A stretch of DNA of 64,000 nt from Verrucomicrobiota bacterium (GTDB lineage: Bacteria; Verrucomicrobiota; Verrucomicrobiia; Chthoniobacterales; Terrimicrobiaceae): NCBI GenBank assembly GCA_026398275.1, contig JAPLTF010000065.1:1-64000 (forward strand), written 5' to 3'. The notes below the pieces were generated by a model. It worked only from the letters and a program-made list of their open reading frames with translations, was not told the origin of the DNA and searched no databases. The position numbers were made by a program, and so were the translations under genes. Positions 34,805-55,684 of the stretch are shown one piece after another. Each line of letters starts with the position of its first letter. Within the stretch, counting starts at the first letter, position 1.

Positions 34805-37800
34805 CTACGGGGATTGGGTGGTATAGCTGTAGGTGTTGGATTCCGTCCAGACCCCACCGAACATTGTCCAGAGCGCGACGTAGATCGTGCGCCCATCGGT
34901 CGGGAGCGTGAGGGTTTTTGAAAGTCGGAGAGCTTCGCTTCCGGCATAGATGTCGGAGGCTCCCGGGCTGCTTCCGACCCAAAGTCTGTATTGCTCGGCC
35001 CGGCTCCCGGCGTTCCAGCTAAAGGTGACAGATGACGATGTGAGAGCCGAGAGGTTGGCAGGGGCCAGCATCTGCGCCTTGGCCCGGGCGGGCGCTATTG
35101 ATGTCACATAGGTGTAGGAATGGTATGTCTTCCAGACACCGTTAAACATCGACCAGAGCCTCACGTAAACAGGACGGCCATCCGCAGGCAGCGGGAGCGT
35201 CTTCGAACGGTTTGTGCCTTCGTCGGAGCGGTAGAGGTCATATCCGTCGGGTGTGCTGCCCACCCAGAGCGCATATTTCTGAACTCCTGTGCCCGCGTCC
35301 CATGCGAAAAGGGTGGGGCCGGTCGGCAGCGGACCTGTGTTCGCCGGAGTCACCAACCTGGCTTTGACCTGCGAGGCCGGGCTGGATGCGGTGAACCTGT
35401 AATTATTGTATTGCTCCCACTTCCCGTTGAACATCGTCCACAAGCGCACGTAGAGCGGACGCCCGTCCGCCGGCAGCGTGATGGTCCTGCTTGTTGCCAG
35501 TCCTTGTGAAGCGCCATAGATGTCGTAGGCGCCCGGAGAACTGCCGATCCACAGCAAATATTTTTGGGCATCCGTTCCTGCATCCCATGTGAAAGTTGTC
35601 GTCGCCGACGGCAGCGTGCATCCGTTGGCCGGACTCGTGAGTCTGGCCTTGGGGCCCGCCGCAATCGGGCATGTGTAAATGTAGTCGTTGTATTGCTGCG
35701 AGCCCCCGCTGAACACGGTCCATAGCCGCACGAAGATCGGCCGGCCGTCGGTTGGCACGCTGAGTGTCCGGGAAGTATTTATTCCTTCATCCGCCCGGTA
35801 GAGGTCGGAAGTTCCCATGGCCGACCCGACCCATAATGTATATTTTTGGACCCCATAACCGGCACTCCAAGTGAACGTCACGTTGGCGGATGGCAGCGTG
35901 GTGCGGTTTGCAGGAGCCAGCATCTGAGCCTTGGAAGGCCCCGGGGCGATCGACGTGGTATAGCTGTAGCTCCGGAACCTCTCCCACTTTCCTTTATACA
36001 TCGACCAAAGCCGCACGTAGACAGGTCTTCCGTCTTCCGGAAGCGGGACGGTCCTCGAGAGATTCGTTCCCAGGACGGCATTATAAAGATCCGAAGCGCC
36101 GGGACTGGATCCGATCCAGAGCGAGTATTGCTCCACGTTGGCGCCGGCATCCCAAGTGAAGGTGGTCGGTCCAAGAGCCAGTGTGGTTCCATTGGTTGGC
36201 CCAAGCATTTCGGCATCCTCGCTGGGCACATATTGGCAGGCGTAGGTGTAGGTGTTGAATTGCTGCCACCTGCCGTTGAACATGGTCCACAACCGCACAT
36301 AAATGTTGCGCCCATCGGTGGGCAGCAGGAGGGTTTTTGACAGGGCCAGCCCCTCATCGCCGTTGTAGATGTCCGAGGCCCCGGGGGCATTCCCGATCCA
36401 AAGGGAATACTTTTGGGCCCCTGTCCCGGCGTCCCACGTAAAGGTCGTGCTTGCTGCGGCGAGCGGGCTGTTGTTCGCCGGGCTGAGCATCTGCGCCTTG
36501 ACGCTGCCCCCCGGGGCACGCTGGGTCGTGAAGGAATACGAAAAATACTGCTCCCATGTCCCATTGAAAATCGACCAAAGTCTCACGTAGATCGGACGCC
36601 CATCCTTGGGGAGAATGATGGTTCTCGAACGATTCAGACCCTCGTCAACACGGTAGATATCCGATCCGCCTGGTTCGCTTCCCACCCACAACCCGTATTT
36701 TTGAACTCCGGTGCCGGCATCCCAGGTGAACGTGGTAGTGGCGGCGGCAAGCGTGGTTCCGTTAGCCGGAGCGATCAGTTTTGCCTTCGGGTCGCTCATC
36801 GCCTGCCATCCCGCAAACAGAATCAGCCCTCCGTCGTTCGCCGAGCCGACCGTCCAGAAATACGTCGATGATGCCCCGAGAGCGGCCGCAATATCGTTCC
36901 ACTCGGACGCCGTCAGCAGGAACGAACCGCTGCCGTTGAGGGATTTCGAGCCTCCGACAATTAAACCCGGCGTGGCGCTGGAGGCGAAGTAAACCCGTGC
37001 GGGAGCGCTTGTGTTCATCGACCAGCGGAAGGTCTGGGGAAATGTGGCCGCCGCTCCCGCCGGAGGCTGGGCGAGCGTGGCCATATCCCCGCCGGGCGAT
37101 CTCCCCTGCCCGCTTGCTGCGATCGTTGCAAACCCCGCGGTTTTATCTGAAGCCAGAACGACCGCCCCGCCGAAGCTGGTGACAGCCGTTGGGGAGAAAG
37201 TCACCGTCACGTTCTGAGATCCGCCCGGCGCAACCGTCCCCCCCGACCAATTCCCGCTGAACCCAGGCGGGAAAGTGATGCCGCTCACGGTCAGCGCTGA
37301 ATTCCCGGTATTGGTGATCACCATCGTGCTTGTTGCCGGGGAACCGATATTTACCGCGCCAAAGGCCAGGTTTCCACTGAGCGAGGGGATTCGGGTCGGG
37401 GTCGCAAAATTGTCGATATTGACCGATGGGAAGGTTTTCCAGGTCGGTGACGTGAACCCCGTCTTTCCATTGTGGTAGTAGATGGTGAAGTTGCTTGCCG
37501 CCGCCCCGAACACATTCGCTTCAAGCTGAGGGGCGTCTCCCAGAAAGTCCGCAATTTTCAAGCTGCTGCAGCCGGCGAAGGCAAAGTCGCCAATACTTGT
37601 TACCGAGGGCGGAATGGCCAGGCTTGCCAGCCCGGTGCAGTTGCGGAATGCCTGATACCCGATGGTGGTCACGCCGGGGGGGATTGTGATTGCTGTGAGC
37701 CCGCTGCAGCCCGCAAAAACCGCCCCTCCCAAGGTGAGCAGATTCGGAGGAATGATCACGCTGGCCAGCCCGCTGCAACCCGCGAATGCCGCGCCTCCAA

Positions 37801-40384
37801 TCCGCGTCACTCCGGAAGGAATGGTCACGCCGGACAAGCCGCTGCACCCGGTGAATGCCCCGGTTCCGATGCTCACAACCGTGGATGGAATGGTGACGGT
37901 CTTCAGCCCGCTGCATCCGGAAAATGCATAGTCGGGGATGACTGATACGCCCGGTGGAATCACGACGCTGGTCAGCGCCGGACAGGCGGAAAATGCGTAA
38001 TTTCCCAGCGAAGTGACGCCGGTGGGAATGGTCACCCCAGCGAGTCCGGCGCAGCCGCGAAAGGCGTCGTCGCCGATGCCGGTGACGGATGACGGGATCA
38101 CATAACTGCCGGAACGGCCGCCCGGGAAGTCGATGAGAAGGCTCTGGGACTTGTTGAAGAGCACACCGTCCAATGAGGAGTAGTTCGCATTGCCGCCGTG
38201 GACATTGATCGCCGCAAGCTTATCACAGCTTTCAAAGGCATTTTTTCCGATCGCCGTAACGCCCGCCGGAATCGAGATGCTTGTCATTTCACTGCAATAA
38301 TAGAATGCCCCGTCCTCAATTCGGGCGACCGGTTTTCCGTTGATGAGTGCGGGGATGGCCACATCGCCGACGAACTTCGTGAGGTAGCCGGTGATCGTGA
38401 TCTCTGTCCCGCTGTCAACAAACGTGAAGTTGCCGAAGGAACTCTCCCCAACGGACGGCGTGGGGGCGGGTGTTGGCGTGGGCGTCGGAGAGGTTGTCGG
38501 AGTTGGAGATGGAGTGACTGCGGCCGTCGAGCTTTGGAACGCGAAATCGAACGGCGGCTGCGTGATGCCGCCGGGAGTGCCTTGGAATCCGAACGTGACC
38601 TTCCCGCTCGCCGGCACGTCCTTGTTCCATACGAAATTCTGGGCGTTGAAGGTGTAGAGGTTGCCGGTTTGGGAGGCAATTTGAGCGCTCCATGGAGTGC
38701 CGATCACCGCATCGAAGCGATAAGCGAGGCTCCAGTTTTTCAGCGCCACAGCGGTTTTGTTCTGGATATTGACCTCGGCGTCATACCCGTCGCCCCAATC
38801 GCTCTTGATCTTGAAGGTCACAATGACCTTGTCGTTTTCAAACTTGGCATCGCCGGAATTTGGGACCGGGGTTGGACCTGGTGTTGGTGTCGGGGTGGCC
38901 GTCGGCGTCGGGGTCGGCGTCGGGGTCGGCGTCGGGGTATACGGGACGGTTGAGACAAAAAAGGCGAAATCCGATGGTGGCTGCGAAATTCCCCCCGGAG
39001 TGCCCTGGAACCCGAAGGTCACCTTTCCGCTTGCTGGCACGTCCTTGTTCCACACGAAATTCTGGGCATCGAAGGTGTAGCGGTTGCCGGTTTTCGAGGT
39101 GAGCCGCGCGCTCCACGGGTCGCCAATGCCGTAATTGAAGGCAAACGAAAGGCCCCAGTTTTTCAGCGCCACAGCGGTTTTGTTTTGAATGCTGACTTCG
39201 GCGTCATACCCATCGCCCCAATCGGTCTTGACCTTGAATGTCACGATGACCTTGTCGTTTTCGAACCGGGCATCACCGGAATTTGGGGTCGGCGTTGGGG
39301 TGGCCGTCGGGGAAGGCGTCGGCGTAACAGTGGGGGTTGGGGTGGCCGTTGGGGTCGGCGTTGGGGTGGCCGTCGGGGAAGGCGTCGGCGTAACAGTGGG
39401 GGTTGGAGTGGCCGTCGGGGTCGGCGTCGGCGTTGGGGTCGGCGAGCCGACCGTGATCCGCCGTGAGAAGGAATCGCTCAACGTCCCGTTGGAGACCGTT
39501 TGAGTCAGGTCGTAGGCGCCTGTGACCGCATAGGTATGGCTTCCCATCCGGGTGGCCTCGCTGCCCTGACCGATGCCATAGTTGACCTCCCAATAGCTTT
39601 GATCCCAGGAGTTCCCGCCGATCGAAAGGTCATACACGGCCACCGCCAGCGGCGGTTGCCCGGACGTGCGGGAAACGATCGTGTAGGCGTATGGAAGACC
39701 GGACAACGAAGTGGACCATGCACCGTTTCGAAATCCGAACGTTCCGCCAACCCAGTCGATCGTGCCAGCGCTGATCTGAATTTGATCACGGGTATTCGGC
39801 CCCACCCCGTCGGAATTGGAGACCTGTTCGACCCACGCTTTGTTCCGCGCATCGTAGACAAGCGCCCGCGCGGTGTAGATCGTGGAAGCTTGGAACCCGA
39901 CCCCCACTTCAACCAGACACAGGATGCCGTCTTTAAGCTGGTAGAGATACGTGGTGTGCGGGCCGGTTGCGGTTCCCGCGGCCGGGCCAAAGTCCCGCGC
40001 TCTCCAGGAACCTGTCTCCAAATCGTAATAGCGGCAATGAAACTCCCTGGAAACAGAGGCGCCGATGGCGACTTCCGACTGCCACACGACCATGCCGTCG
40101 GAAATTTCAGGGACGCTGGCGGAGTAGGTTCCAAACCCGCTGTTGATGCCTGCGCTCCAGGCGGTTTCAACCGTGGTTTTGCGAATCGGATCCTGCGCCG
40201 AACACTTGACGATGACTCCCGGGTTCGTTCCTGCAGGGACCGTTTCATGGACGATCTCGGCCGTGATCTGGCCCGGCGGAAGGTAGACAACCGCTTGCGC
40301 CTGGCAGGCAAACGCCAGAACGGAGGCGCTCCCAACGGCAACTGCTTTCAACGCGCAATTCATTCTGAATATTGAAAAATTCAT
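34805..40384 (-). CDS. Giant secreted CBM2 / LRR / tandem-repeat protein
   Basis: 1,859 residues. The signal peptide ends near QAQA. The order is: an N-terminal beta domain (about 30-310) ending in a PKD-like segment; a PT linker (about 311-367); CBM2-like domain 1 (about 369-478); a PT linker; CBM2-like domain 2 (about 510-620), nearly identical to the first; a third PT linker; a BspA/LRR5 array (about 646-965; units like VTIPSGVTRIGGAAFAGCSGL); an ASH/choice-of-anchor-like Ig domain (about 996-1088); one divergent unit; and seven tandem units of about 95 residues each with FTWDAG, LWVG and DGR-x-(I/V)-YVRLW. No catalytic domain is recognised. It is most likely an extracellular polysaccharide-binding adhesin. 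The C-terminus has no PEP-CTERM or transmembrane anchor; the last repeat might serve in export. Confidence 0.88.
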   Translation of the reverse strand: MNFSIFRMNCALKAVAVGSASVLAFACQAQAVVYLPPGQITAEIVHETVPAGTNPGVIVKCSAQDPIRKTTVETAWSAGINSGFGTYSASVPEISDGMVVWQSEVAIGASVSREFHCRYYDLETGSWRARDFGPAAGTATGPHTTYLYQLKDGILCLVEVGVGFQASTIYTARALVYDARNKAWVEQVSNSDGVGPNTRDQIQISAGTIDWVGGTFGFRNGAWSTSLSGLPYAYTIVSRTSGQPPLAVAVYDLSIGGNSWDQSYWEVNYGIGQGSEATRMGSHTYAVTGAYDLTQTVSNGTLSDSFSRRITVGSPTPTPTPTPTATPTPTVTPTPSPTATPTPTPTATPTPTVTPTPSPTATPTPTPNSGDARFENDKVIVTFKVKTDWGDGYDAEVSIQNKTAVALKNWGLSFAFNYGIGDPWSARLTSKTGNRYTFDAQNFVWNKDVPASGKVTFGFQGTPGGISQPPSDFAFFVSTVPYTPTPTPTPTPTPTATPTPTPGPTPVPNSGDAKFENDKVIVTFKIKSDWGDGYDAEVNIQNKTAVALKNWSLAYRFDAVIGTPWSAQIASQTGNLYTFNAQNFVWNKDVPASGKVTFGFQGTPGGITQPPFDFAFQSSTAAVTPSPTPTTSPTPTPTPAPTPSVGESSFGNFTFVDSGTEITITGYLTKFVGDVAIPALINGKPVARIEDGAFYYCSEMTSISIPAGVTAIGKNAFESCDKLAAINVHGGNANYSSLDGVLFNKSQSLLIDFPGGRSGSYVIPSSVTGIGDDAFRGCAGLAGVTIPTGVTSLGNYAFSACPALTSVVIPPGVSVIPDYAFSGCSGLKTVTIPSTVVSIGTGAFTGCSGLSGVTIPSGVTRIGGAAFAGCSGLASVIIPPNLLTLGGAVFAGCSGLTAITIPPGVTTIGYQAFRNCTGLASLAIPPSVTSIGDFAFAGCSSLKIADFLGDAPQLEANVFGAAASNFTIYYHNGKTGFTSPTWKTFPSVNIDNFATPTRIPSLSGNLAFGAVNIGSPATSTMVITNTGNSALTVSGITFPPGFSGNWSGGTVAPGGSQNVTVTFSPTAVTSFGGAVVLASDKTAGFATIAASGQGRSPGGDMATLAQPPAGAAATFPQTFRWSMNTSAPARVYFASSATPGLIVGGSKSLNGSGSFLLTASEWNDIAAALGASSTYFWTVGSANDGGLILFAGWQAMSDPKAKLIAPANGTTLAAATTTFTWDAGTGVQKYGLWVGSEPGGSDIYRVDEGLNRSRTIILPKDGRPIYVRLWSIFNGTWEQYFSYSFTTQRAPGGSVKAQMLSPANNSPLAAASTTFTWDAGTGAQKYSLWIGNAPGASDIYNGDEGLALSKTLLLPTDGRNIYVRLWTMFNGRWQQFNTYTYACQYVPSEDAEMLGPTNGTTLALGPTTFTWDAGANVEQYSLWIGSSPGASDLYNAVLGTNLSRTVPLPEDGRPVYVRLWSMYKGKWERFRSYSYTTSIAPGPSKAQMLAPANRTTLPSANVTFTWSAGYGVQKYTLWVGSAMGTSDLYRADEGINTSRTLSVPTDGRPIFVRLWTVFSGGSQQYNDYIYTCPIAAGPKARLTSPANGCTLPSATTTFTWDAGTDAQKYLLWIGSSPGAYDIYGASQGLATSRTITLPADGRPLYVRLWTMFNGKWEQYNNYRFTASSPASQVKARLVTPANTGPLPTGPTLFAWDAGTGVQKYALWVGSTPDGYDLYRSDEGTNRSKTLPLPADGRPVYVRLWSMFNGVWKTYHSYTYVTSIAPARAKAQMLAPANLSALTSSSVTFSWNAGSRAEQYRLWVGSSPGASDIYAGSEALRLSKTLTLPTDGRTIYVALWTMFGGVWTESNTYSYTTQSP
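34810..36795 (-). repeat. Seven tandem ~285-bp coding repeats
   Basis: Unit starts (Ala-x-Leu-x-x-Pro-x-Asn) fall at about 36785, 36500, 36215, 35930, 35650, 35365 and 35080, so the period is close to 285 bp. Units differ by many substitutions, so they are old, but every unit keeps TFTWDAG-type, LWVGS and YVRLW blocks. Confidence 0.8.
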
Positions 40385-46122: not shown

Positions 46123-46215
46123 AGGTCATTCGGGGGCGGAATCGGCAAAACATGCTCAAAAACAAGGAAAAGCGACGCCCAGAAGAGATCGTGGGAATCT
46201 GGGAGAAAGCACTAC

Positions 46216-46248
46216 ATATGGTGGTCAGTGAATAAATAACCACCATAT
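46216..46248 (+). promoter_or_regulatory. Perfect inverted repeat upstream of nrdB
   Basis: ATATGGTGGT and ACCACCATAT form perfect 10-bp arms around a 13-nt A/T-rich loop. TTGACG follows at 46261. It lies about 135 bp upstream of nrdB in an otherwise empty 260-bp leader. It could be a regulator site or a hairpin ending the tlyA-nadK-ptsN transcript; a weak T-run follows. Confidence 0.45.
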
Positions 46249-46381
46249 AAAGGATTTTTATTGACGTTCCGCCCTCCAAAATAGATGTTTTGAAAACGTC
46301 GCAGGCAAGGAAAATAACGGACAAAAGTCCTGTGTCAAACCACCCCCGGTCTGCTTTCGTAAAAATAAAGGAAAATTCAGC

Positions 46382-47473
46382 ATGGCAACAACCACGATTA
46401 CCATCGGAGATCGTCAATTCATTTTGGACAAGGACAAGGCGGAGGCCGCGTTTGCCGCGAAGAAGGTCATCAACGGCCGGCAGACGATGTTCTTCAACAT
46501 TCTGCCGCTGAAATACCAGTGGGCCTACGACCTCTACAAAAAGATGAAGGCGAACCACTGGGAGCCGGAGGACATCCAGATGCAGAAGGACTGCGAGCAC
46601 TGGCGCGACACCACCGGGTATATCTCCGAGGTCGAGCGCTGGATCATCAAGATGGGGATCGGCTATTTTTCGGCGGCGGAGGGGATCGTCGGGGACAACA
46701 TCCTGCATGTCGTCCGCGAGTCCGTGACGGCTCCGGAGCTCAAACTGGTTCTCGGCCGCCACGCGCATGAGGAGAACATCCACGCCGACTCGCTGGTCTA
46801 TATGATCAGCTCGCTCGGGATCAACCCGCACGAGTGCGAGGCCATGTTCGAGGACGTGGAGACGATCAAGAACAAGACGGATTTCGTGGTGAGCAACAGC
46901 CGGGCGCTGCGCCGGGACACCGACCTCACGCTCACGGAGAACAAGCAGGCGCTGGCAAAAAACATGTTCCTGTTCGGCCAGTGCATGGAGGGGACCCAGT
47001 TCTACGGGCTCTTCGGCATGGTCCTCGCGCTCTACCGCCAGAACAAATTTCCGGGCATCGGCCAGATGTTCAGCTACACCCTGCGCGACTAGTCGAACCA
47101 CATCGAGCTGCTCCGCCAGCTCTTCCAGGATCTCGTGGATGAAAACCCCGATGTCTGGACCGAGGAATACCGCGAGGACCTCCGCAACACCATGCGCGAG
47201 GCGGTGAGGCTCGAGAAGCAGTTCATCCTCGACTGCCTCCCGGTTTCCGCCGTCGGTCTCACGGCGGATGAGTTCACGAGCTACATCGACTACATCGGCG
47301 ACCGCCGCCTCGAGGGCGTCGGCCTCGAGCCGCTGAACCCGCCGATCACAAACCCACTTCCCTGGCTCTCGGAGATGATGGAGATCAAAAAGGAAACCAA
47401 TTTCTTCGAAGGCCGGGTCACCGAATACCGCCGGGCCGTCGACCTCTCCGGAGTCTCGGACGACGATCTCTAG
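46382..47473 (+). pseudogene. nrdB: Ribonucleotide reductase small subunit interrupted by in-frame amber codon
   Basis: A single frame of 363 codons broken only by TAG at 47090-47092. Metal ligands can be read by comparison with E. coli R2: D70 (MQKDCEHW), E131 and H134 (HEENIH), E203 (CMEGTQFY), then RD-stop-SNH, where RDExxH is expected. The stop replaces exactly the fifth ligand, glutamate (GAG to TAG is one change). Downstream protein is intact and well conserved (NPDVWTEEY, PWLSEMMEIKKETNFFE). The radical-tyrosine position (H134+4) is L138, so this is a tyrosine-less, class Ic-like R2. A sequencing error, a real mutation or suppression are all possible; I label it a pseudogene because it cannot be translated normally. 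Confidence 0.88.
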
Positions 47474-47602: not shown

Positions 47603-50600
47603 ATGATCCGACACATCACCCTCGACGAAGACATCGCCCTCAAGCGCCTGGTCACCACCCCCCGCGAACAGAAGCCCGGCTTCGCCTGGAGGGATTCCCT
47701 GAATCAGGACACCGCCCCTCATCCGGAGATTCTGGTTTACAGGAGCTCGGGCGAGGAGCACGCGTTCAACCTTGCGGACGTGGCGGACCAGATCGGTGAG
47801 GCGCTGACCGACCTCCTTCTCTCCCGCGAGGAGAAGGATATCTTCAACGAGGAGAACCGCGGGTTCGTGGCGAACGTCGCCCACTCCGTGGCAACCCGCC
47901 TGCTTGAGCAGGTCCGCGAAGGGAGCGGCCTGAAACTTTCCGAGAACGATCTCTCGCTGCTCATCGAGAAGGCGCTGATCGAAAATGATGCCCACGACGT
48001 GGCGAAGAGCCTCGTCTTCAAGCGCTCGATCCACTCGATGGACTCCACCCCTTCGGGCGGAACGCTTTCGACACCGATCAACGTGCGCCTGATCCGGCGC
48101 AACGGATCGGTCGTCCCGTGGATCGAGGCAAAAATTGAAACCGCCTGCCGGAAGGCGTTTCTCTCGTCCAAGGAGCATGCGGAGGCGGCTGCCGCAATTT
48201 CCCGCGCAGTGACCGACCGCGTCCGCTTCCGCGACCAGGCGTTCGTCCACATTGAGGATGTCCAGGACATGGTCCAGGAGGAGCTGATGCGCCAGGGGTA
48301 TTACAAGGTTGCCGAGAGCTATATCCTCTACCGCGCCCAGCGCACCCGCCTCCGCGAGGAATCCGGCCCGGGGCCGGACGAGTCCGCGCCCCAGCAGGAG
48401 TCGCTCATCGTCGTCCGCCAGCGGGACGGGCAGAATGTTTTCTGGGACGGCAGCGAGCTGAAGCGCCGCATCCAGTTCGCGATGATCGGGCTGGACCTCA
48501 ACATGGATGCCCTCCAGATCGAGCGCGAACTCCGCCGCTCGATCGGGACCGAGGTCAGCGAGGAGATCCTGAAAAACACGATCATCCTCAACGCGCGCAC
48601 GCTCATCGAGCGGGATGCGGATTTTGCGAAGTTCGCTGCGAGGATCATGCTCTCCTACATCTATGAGGAGGTCCTCGACTGGAAGATCACGCGCGACGGG
48701 ATCGAAGGCCTGCGCGCAGCGCACAAGAAGGCGTTCAAGAGCTACCTGCGGCACGGGGTCGCGATCGAGCGCCTCTCGCCGAAGCTCCTGTCATTCAACT
48801 TCGATGTCCTCGCCGACGCCATCGACCCGACAGCGGACATGGATTTCGACTTTCTCGGCATCCAGACCCTCTACGACCGGTATCTCATCGTGGACAAGAC
48901 CCGCAAGCAGGCCCGCCGGCTCGAAACGCCGCAATTTTTCTGGATGCGGGTGTCGATGGGGCTGTTCATCGACGAGCCGTCCGACCGCGAGGCGTGGGTG
49001 GTCCGCCTCTACAATCTTTATAAGAGCCGCCGGTTCTGCTCGAGCACGCCGACGCTCTTCAACGCCGGAACCCTCCACAGCCAGCTCTCGAGCTGCTACC
49101 TCTACAAGGTCGACGACTCGATCGAGTCGATCATGCAGCGAGGCATCGCCGACAATGCCTACCTCTCCAAATGGGCGGGCGGGCTCGGCGGCTCATGGAC
49201 CGCGGTGCGCGGCACCGGCAGCTACATCAAGGGCACGAACGGCGAGAGCCAGGGCGTGATCCCGTTCCTCAAACTCCACAACGACCAGCTCGTCGCCGTG
49301 AACCAGGGCGGCAAGCGCCGGGGCTCGGGCTGCGCGTATCTGGAGTCGTGGCACAACGACGTGGAGGATTTCCTCCAGCTCCGCCGCAACACCGGCGACG
49401 ACCGCCGCAGGGCGCATGACCTGAACACCGCGAACTGGGTTCCCGACCTTTTTATGAAGCGCATGGAGGCCCGCGAAAACTGGACCCTCTTCCGCTCGAA
49501 CGAGGCCCCCGACCTGCACGATCTCTACGGGCAGAAGTTCGAGGAAAAATACCTGCACTACGAGGCGCTCGCGAAGGAGGGCAAGATCACCGGACGGGAA
49601 GTCCCCGCCATCGACATGTGGAAGCAGATGCTCAAGATGCTCCTCGAGACCGGCCATCCGTGGATCACCTTCAAGGACCCCTGCAACCTCCGCAGCCCGC
49701 AGGATCATGCCGGCGTGATCCACTCCTCGAACCTCTGCACGGAGATCACCCTGAACACCAGCGAGGACGAGACGGCGGTCTGCAACCTCGGCTCGGTCGT
49801 CCTCGACACCCACATGAAGGAGGACGGCTCGCTCGACCATGACATGCTCCGCGAGACGATCCTCGTCGCTGTCCGCGCCCTCGACAACGTCATCGACATC
49901 AACTTCTATCCGACGGAATCCGCCAAGCGCTCGAACTTGCGCCACCGGCCGATCGGACTCGGGGTCATGGGCGTCCAGAACGCGCTTTTCAAGCGGGGTC
50001 TGGATTTTGCGAGCGACGCGGCCGTCGAGTTCAACGACGAATTCATGGAGGCGATCGCCTACTACGCCTACTCGTCCTCGAGCGATCTGGCGGCGGAGCG
50101 CGGAGTTTACAGCTCCTACATGGGCTCCCAGTGGGACCGCGGGCTCCTGCCGCAGGATACCATCGACATCCTCGAGCGCGAGCGCGGGCTCGAGATCGAC
50201 GTCCCGCGCGGAGGCTCGATGGACTGGACGCCGGTGCGCGAAAAGATCAAGGCCCAGGGGATGCGGAACTCGAACGTTCTCGCCATCGCCCCGACCGCGA
50301 CGATCTCGAACATCATGGGGACCACGCCGTGCATCGAGCCGAACTACAAAAACCTCTACGCCAAGGAAAACCTCGGCGGAAAATTCACCATCCTCAGCAC
50401 CGAGCTCGTCCGCGACCTCAAAAAGCTCGGCAAATGGGACGGCGACATGCTCGAGCAGCTCAAGTATTTCGAGGGCGAGCTCGCGAACATCGAGGGCATC
50501 CCGGAAGAGCTGCGGCGCAAGCACCTCACGGTATTCGGAATCCCCTACCAGTTCGTGATCGACGCCGCGGCCAGGCGCCAGAAATGGATCGACCAGTCGC

Positions 50601-50860
50601 AGTCTGTCAACCTCTTCATCAGCGAGCCCGACCTCAAGATCCTGAGCCACATGTATCGCCGGGCCTGGCATACCGGGCTCAAAACCACCTACTACCTACG
50701 CACCCTCGGCGCTTCGAGCATCGAAGGGCCGACGACAAATGTGAAAAAGGAGCTGCGGGGGGTTGTTCTGGCGGCGAAGAAGGAATTCGATGCCGAGGAA
50801 AAGCTGGCCTGCTCATTGGAGGCCATGCGCAACGGCGGAGAGTGCGAGGCGTGCCAATAG
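47603..50860 (+). CDS. nrdA: Ribonucleotide reductase large subunit with multiple ATP-cones
   Basis: 1,085 residues, far longer than E. coli NrdA (761). The first 350 residues hold an ATP-cone-like region (about 35-140) and two clearer ATP-cones (about 150-250, starting LIRRNGSVVPWIEAKIETAC, and about 265-360, IVVRQRDGQNVFWDGSELKR). The catalytic core has C498 (LSSCYLYKVDDS), N710-L-C712-T-E714 and C727 (AVCNLGS). The C-terminal shuttle cysteines are CEAC near the end. Repeated cones are known in chlamydial NrdA and fit the class Ic partner. It is presumably cotranscribed with nrdB. Confidence 0.96.
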   Translation: MIRHITLDEDIALKRLVTTPREQKPGFAWRDSLNQDTAPHPEILVYRSSGEEHAFNLADVADQIGEALTDLLLSREEKDIFNEENRGFVANVAHSVATRLLEQVREGSGLKLSENDLSLLIEKALIENDAHDVAKSLVFKRSIHSMDSTPSGGTLSTPINVRLIRRNGSVVPWIEAKIETACRKAFLSSKEHAEAAAAISRAVTDRVRFRDQAFVHIEDVQDMVQEELMRQGYYKVAESYILYRAQRTRLREESGPGPDESAPQQESLIVVRQRDGQNVFWDGSELKRRIQFAMIGLDLNMDALQIERELRRSIGTEVSEEILKNTIILNARTLIERDADFAKFAARIMLSYIYEEVLDWKITRDGIEGLRAAHKKAFKSYLRHGVAIERLSPKLLSFNFDVLADAIDPTADMDFDFLGIQTLYDRYLIVDKTRKQARRLETPQFFWMRVSMGLFIDEPSDREAWVVRLYNLYKSRRFCSSTPTLFNAGTLHSQLSSCYLYKVDDSIESIMQRGIADNAYLSKWAGGLGGSWTAVRGTGSYIKGTNGESQGVIPFLKLHNDQLVAVNQGGKRRGSGCAYLESWHNDVEDFLQLRRNTGDDRRRAHDLNTANWVPDLFMKRMEARENWTLFRSNEAPDLHDLYGQKFEEKYLHYEALAKEGKITGREVPAIDMWKQMLKMLLETGHPWITFKDPCNLRSPQDHAGVIHSSNLCTEITLNTSEDETAVCNLGSVVLDTHMKEDGSLDHDMLRETILVAVRALDNVIDINFYPTESAKRSNLRHRPIGLGVMGVQNALFKRGLDFASDAAVEFNDEFMEAIAYYAYSSSSDLAAERGVYSSYMGSQWDRGLLPQDTIDILERERGLEIDVPRGGSMDWTPVREKIKAQGMRNSNVLAIAPTATISNIMGTTPCIEPNYKNLYAKENLGGKFTILSTELVRDLKKLGKWDGDMLEQLKYFEGELANIEGIPEELRRKHLTVFGIPYQFVIDAAARRQKWIDQSQSVNLFISEPDLKILSHMYRRAWHTGLKTTYYLRTLGASSIEGPTTNVKKELRGVVLAAKKEFDAEEKLACSLEAMRNGGECEACQ

Positions 50861-54601: not shown

Positions 54602-55684
54602 TTACAGATCCTGGATGCCGGCTTCTTTCAGGCGGTCCTCGATGTCGCTTTTTTGCAGCGCCTCGACCATCTCGCCGATCTCTCCGCCCAGAAAGCGGTC
54701 GAGGTTGTAGAGCGAGACCTTGATCCGGTGGTCGGTCACCCGGTTCTCCGCAAAATTATACGTCCGGATTTTTTCCTCCCGGCCGCCACCGCCGATCAGG
54801 CTCTTGCGGTGCGCGGAATATTTTTCCTCCTCCTCGCGTCGCTTGTCCTCGAGCAGGCGCGATCGCATGATTTTGATCGCGGCCTCCTTGTTCTTCTGCT
54901 GGCTGCGCCCGTCCTGGCAGCGGACGATCCGACCGGTCGGGATGTGCATGACCTGCACGGCGGAGTCGGTGGTATTGACGCCCTGGCCGCCGGGGCCGCC
55001 CGCGCGGCAGACCTCGATGCGGAGGTCCTCGGGTTTGAGATCGATGTCCACCTCTTCAGCCTCCGGCAGCACGGCGACGGTTGCGGTGGAGGTGTGGATC
55101 CTTCCCTGCGCCTCGGTTGCGGGCACGCGCTGCACGCGGTGGACCCCGCTCTCATAGCGGAACCGCCGGAAAACCGACGTGCCGGACACGCGGAAAACCA
55201 TCTCGCGAAATCCGCCGAGATCCGCCACGCTGGAGTCCATCTCCTCAACCTTGAGGCCCAGCGAGTCGGCGTATCGGGAATACATGCGGTAAAGATCGGC
55301 CGCGAAGAGCGCGGCCTCGGTCCCGCCGGTGCCCGCTCGAATCTCCACGATCGCATCGCGGTCCTCGTCCGGTTCGGGAGGCAGGAGCGAGACTTGGACC
55401 TCGCGTTCGAGCTCGGGAATCAGCGCCTCGAGCGCGGGGATTTCCAGCTCTGCGAGCTCGGCCATCTCCTTGTCGTCCGAAGCGGCAAGTTCCCGGTTGT
55501 CCGCATGGTCCTTCCTCGCCTTGACGAGGCGCGCCCAGACATCGAGGAGGGATTTTGTCGCAGAGTGCTCGCGGAGGACTTCCCTGGCGCGGACGGCGTT
55601 GTCGAACAGTCCGGATGACGAAATCTCGCGCTCGAGCTCCTCGAAGCGCGCGCGCTTCCTTTCGATCAGGGGTTCGAAGTCCAT
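54602..55684 (-). CDS. prfA: Peptide chain release factor 1
   Basis: 360 residues. RF1 is indicated by the PAT tripeptide (RVPATEAQGRIH), which reads UAA and UAG, and the catalytic GGQ in AGGPGGQGVNTTDSA. The length is standard. Its intact presence means UAG is a normal stop in this organism, which bears directly on the amber codon in nrdB. Confidence 0.97.
   Translation of the reverse strand: MDFEPLIERKRARFEELEREISSSGLFDNAVRAREVLREHSATKSLLDVWARLVKARKDHADNRELAASDDKEMAELAELEIPALEALIPELEREVQVSLLPPEPDEDRDAIVEIRAGTGGTEAALFAADLYRMYSRYADSLGLKVEEMDSSVADLGGFREMVFRVSGTSVFRRFRYESGVHRVQRVPATEAQGRIHTSTATVAVLPEAEEVDIDLKPEDLRIEVCRAGGPGGQGVNTTDSAVQVMHIPTGRIVRCQDGRSQQKNKEAAIKIMRSRLLEDKRREEEEKYSAHRKSLIGGGGREEKIRTYNFAENRVTDHRIKVSLYNLDRFLGGEIGEMVEALQKSDIEDRLKEAGIQDL

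Follow-up and report, generated by a model that had tools for sequence, protein, structure and literature searches.

A single amber codon at a metal-ligand glutamate of a class Ic-type nrdB gene in a verrucomicrobial draft genome: probably a consensus error or rare variant

The ribonucleotide reductase gene nrdB of a Verrucomicrobiota bacterium carries one in-frame TAG, at codon 237. We infer that it represents an isolated single-base nonsense allele (GAG to TAG), which is more probably an error of the consensus, or a rare variant, than a fixed mutation. The gene lies in the window, by which we mean the whole stretch of 64,000 nucleotides that was analysed (assembly GCA_026398275.1, contig JAPLTF010000065.1, positions 1 to 64,000 of the forward strand). 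The features concerned are the following:

46209..46255, + strand: probable NrdR box pair 5' of nrdB, GCACTACATATGGTGG and CCACCATATAAAGGAT, 31 bases apart, from a consensus scan only
46382..47473, + strand: nrdB, class Ic-type ribonucleotide reductase R2 (beta) subunit, with one amber codon inside
46382..47089, + strand: part of nrdB before the stop, 236 codons, PF00268 positions 2-191
47090..47092, + strand: TAG, codon 237; GAG or GAA (Glu) in relatives; aligned to Glu227 of the Chlamydia trachomatis R2
47093..47470, + strand: part of nrdB after the stop, 126 codons, PF00268 positions 195-274 and the C-terminal tail
47603..50860, + strand: nrdA, class I ribonucleotide reductase alpha subunit, intact, 1085 aa, with ATP cones
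54602..55684, - strand: prfA (RF1), intact, 360 aa, which reads TAG as stop

Translation of nrdB gave 363 codons with a single internal TAG, flanked by the residues LRD-stop-SNHIELL. The natural terminator at 47471-47473 is also a TAG and falls at the same end point as in the nrdB genes of relatives. A sequence-only reading had described a frame open over this length but for the one TAG, and both its coordinates and its description proved correct. Each half of the gene matched PF00268 on its own (4e-41 and 3e-17) with no gap in between, and the read-through protein was 93% identical to those of congeners over its full length, so the open frame of nrdB did not arise by chance.

The PF00268 match and the pairing with nrdA place the product in the R2 family. 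The position of the radical tyrosine was occupied by Leu, not Tyr, in all 82 of the loci parsed, which identifies the product as a class Ic-type R2, for which a Mn(IV)/Fe(III) cofactor would be expected. Among solved structures, the top match was indeed the class Ic NrdB of Chlamydia trachomatis (PDB 1syy and 4d8f; E about 1e-72). The window's protein shares with it the ligand set E100, E131, H134, E203, (E237), H240 and the lack of a tyrosine at the radical position, but it has Leu where the chlamydial protein has Phe and, in this assembly only, TAG at codon 237. Five of the six ligands are present, the codon of the sixth being TAG here and Glu in relatives. In the HMMER alignment the stop fell on the Glu of LRDETIH in 1syy, residue 227 by alignment numbering. 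This Glu227 is one of the six metal ligands of the chlamydial enzyme, in agreement with the earlier claim that the lost residue is a metal ligand. Since the codon is GAG or GAA in relatives, one G-to-T change suffices, and the proposed step from GAG to TAG is indeed one base. The exact hit on a ligand is less telling than it may seem: 116 of the 3267 possible single substitutions in nrdB create a stop (3.6%) and four of these 116 strike a ligand glutamate, so that the position of the stop is unremarkable and carries little weight.

The surroundings of the gene look functional. The nrdA gene 3' of nrdB is intact, and the predicted NrdR-like elements, 16 bases each, start 173 and 142 bases 5' of the nrdB start codon in the consensus scan. 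Similar elements recur at a similar distance 5' of nrdB in relatives, and together with the intact nrdA this makes operon and promoter look alive. Elsewhere in the window (34805-40384, - strand) we observed a very long ORF of 1859 aa whose start is signal-like and which contains threonine-proline runs as well as several repeated modules, among them leucine-rich-type repeats and a unit that recurs with TYTT or a similar ending; it resembles a large secreted or surface protein.

The stop was not shared with relatives. The equivalent codon is GAA, GAA and GAG in three congeners, and Glu occupies the site in 103 of the 104 loci parsed, the sole exception being the window's own nrdB. Two surveys, covering 213 genomes from the order and 384 from the class, listed the internal stops of about 200 homologous genes, and a stop at this codon occurred in the window's gene only. 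One further nonsense codon was found among these listed genes, a TAA in a genome of another family of the same order (G077):

L160 (G077:C71:34000-39011): nrdB of G077 with a single in-frame TAA

Like the window's gene, nrdB of this draft genome is intact and conserved but for one stop; unlike it, the stop (YRQT-stop-FPGIG) stands at a different codon, the Lys of YRQNKFPGIG, 5' of the ligand motif, and in a different family, and is not shared by descent. With one stop here and a different one there, lesions in nrdB appear sporadic rather than inherited.

The comparison with congeners also bears on the age of the change. Over 362 codons, the window's nrdB departed from the state common to the three congeners in no amino acid, either before or after the stop, while it showed 10 synonymous differences before the stop and 8 after it. 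Each congener, by the same measure, had 4-6 amino-acid changes of its own before the site and 1-4 after it. The presence of synonymous departures and the absence of amino-acid ones argue that selection acted on the entire frame until a very recent time. We looked in nrdB for the decay of an established pseudogene and found neither extra frameshifts nor a raised rate of amino-acid change after the stop. Judged from these codon comparisons, the change is very recent, or absent altogether, and the earlier alternatives of a recent lesion or an error both find support in the lack of lineage-specific amino-acid change downstream.

The genome itself, of 4.66 Mb, is a draft assembly of 117 contigs with a completeness of 98.7% and a contamination of 3.8%. 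The number of contigs and the lack of some tRNAs suggest that this genome, of an uncultivated Chthoniobacterales bacterium, was assembled from a metagenome. A coding-potential scan for in-frame stops, about 53% sensitive in a test on intact genes, was run over 782 kb of it; it superseded a codon-usage-only scan and a first hexamer scan that were too insensitive (1% for the hexamer version). It flagged 27 stops that had coding sequence in the same frame to either side; on inspection nearly all were ordinary adjacent genes. At this sensitivity, nrdB was the sole clear case of nonsense in a housekeeping gene within the 782 kb, which makes such events rare single hits, as expected for sporadic base errors or rare alleles. 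One of the 27, a TGA (L172; G000:C102:38887), resembles a broken transposase. Since the window was picked for its stop, the nrdB case is not to be counted in a nonsense rate; the remaining 0.72 Mb or so, lacking a clear housekeeping case, would fit any number of nonsense errors or alleles per genome between zero and some tens. Our literature search found no account of nonsense codons in nrdB or of nonsense errors in metagenome-assembled genomes.

Could the TAG be read as sense? Bypass, in which a suppressor or near-cognate tRNA would decode codon 237 at useful efficiency and yield full-length NrdB, had been raised by the sequence-only reading and would account for the intact and conserved frame after the stop. 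The resemblance to known stop-codon recoding (pyrrolysine, suppressor tRNAs, programmed readthrough) ends, however, with the in-frame TAG and the conserved sequence 3' of it. None of the 45 tRNAs found in the genome has a CUA anticodon, nor do four weaker candidates, one of which is tmRNA. PylS gave sub-threshold matches only in this genome, as in most control genomes. The tRNA set is nearly but not fully complete, which leaves some room for bypass, the few tRNAs missing from the assembly including Ile-GAT and Ala-TGC; these two usually lie within rRNA operons. A tRNA with a long variable arm near a contig end (L078:58-148; G000:C54:137-227) was considered as a misread CUA suppressor and rejected, its anticodon being UAU; by eye, an apparent partial tRNA with CAU follows 3' of it. 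Near-cognate readthrough would mostly place a residue other than Glu at this metal ligand. RF1 is intact, 40 of 203 long ORFs terminate in TAG, and congeners lack the stop that recoded genes share with related species. The base after the stop is moreover T (UAG-U), and +4U lowers readthrough in E. coli (PMC5289835). We consequently regard bypass as very improbable and do not uphold that suggestion. A reassignment of TAG to sense throughout the genome has nothing in its favor beyond the in-frame TAG of nrdB itself. The normal use of TAG as terminator, in nrdB too at the point where the genes of relatives stop, effectively refutes it already, and RF1, the absence of a cognate tRNA and the absence of any other convincing intragenic TAG in 782 kb point the same way. 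Its probability is practically nil, and the sequence-only reading had already called it unlikely.

If the stop is not read through, the next question concerns what else could supply deoxyribonucleotides. It had been argued that the organism would then need another ribonucleotide reductase. One was found, of class III, whereas a search of the genome yielded no second copy of nrdB, and the only large subunit of class I/II type was the NrdA of the nrdB operon, so that no class II enzyme was found either. The class III set on contig 32 comprises nrdD, a separate glycyl-radical gene and an NrdG2-type activase:

L079:2755-4649 (G000:C32:62754-64648): split class III ribonucleotide reductase, NrdD and a separate glycyl-radical ORF

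NrdD has 572 aa and ends past the zinc finger; the glycyl-radical loop RVMGYHRPVSQFN lies in a separate ORF of 55 aa with its own ATG and in another frame. We considered this break as a second sequence error and rejected the idea, the split being conserved in relatives. NrdD is split, with different spacing, in G002, G006, G009, G012 and G032, the last from another family, and also in G077 as judged from the pattern of matches; it is in one piece in G025 and G035. The split is a conserved gene fission. Phage nrdD genes and class II enzymes that are split have been described in the literature, but a limited search turned up no bacterial class III enzyme reported to have a free-standing glycyl-radical subunit. 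With nrdD and its activase present, loss of NrdB need not be lethal without oxygen.

This leaves an erroneous consensus base, or a minor strain variant taken into the draft consensus, to be weighed against a genuine loss. If the base is an error or a minor variant, as we consider more likely than not, the population would make normal NrdB with Glu at position 237. If the base is real, RF1 would be expected to terminate at codon 237 and to release an inactive fragment of 236 residues that lacks the fourth glutamate ligand, the second histidine ligand and the tail that docks to NrdA. A real and recent loss of function, fixed or common in the strain and tolerated by means of an anoxic dNTP supply from NrdDG, is possible though doubtful. 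The joint presence of nrdD, the glycyl-radical gene and the activase on contig 32 speaks for it, as does the distribution of nrdD, which was present in only 9 of the 43 relatives searched and yet in both genomes with nrdB nonsense, G077 included. The pattern hints that loss is tolerated; there are only two cases, however, and we estimate that such co-occurrence would arise by luck roughly one time in ten among nrdB-bearing relatives. The same distribution is also a point against an error.

The control with RF1, a gene of the same length and always essential, is likewise uncomfortable for an explanation by errors and favors loss: no premature stop occurred among about 150 genes listed, versus two among about 200 for nrdB. 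Apparent RF1 stops in G060 and G038 were rejected as a nonsense base rate because they are natural C-terminal terminators. On the other side, a real loss would sit uneasily with the lack of decay after the stop, the intact nrdA and the intact predicted regulatory elements upstream, none of which gives a sign of relaxed selection. The strongest version, in which the TAG is real and fixed, the organism has just given up its sole oxygen-dependent ribonucleotide reductase and is left with the split class III enzyme, and G077 is an independent second case, seems improbable to us. An error in the consensus or a rare allele stays our preferred reading, and no biological system is required to explain the nrdB stop.

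In conclusion, the three outcomes differ in what they would mean. Were the TAG read through, recoding would determine a metal ligand in an essential enzyme, a remarkable situation against which the evidence weighs. If the stop is not real, the case is a caution that one base in a draft genome can mimic biology. If it is real, the loss of class I ribonucleotide reductase would be under way in a bacterium that keeps the class III enzyme.
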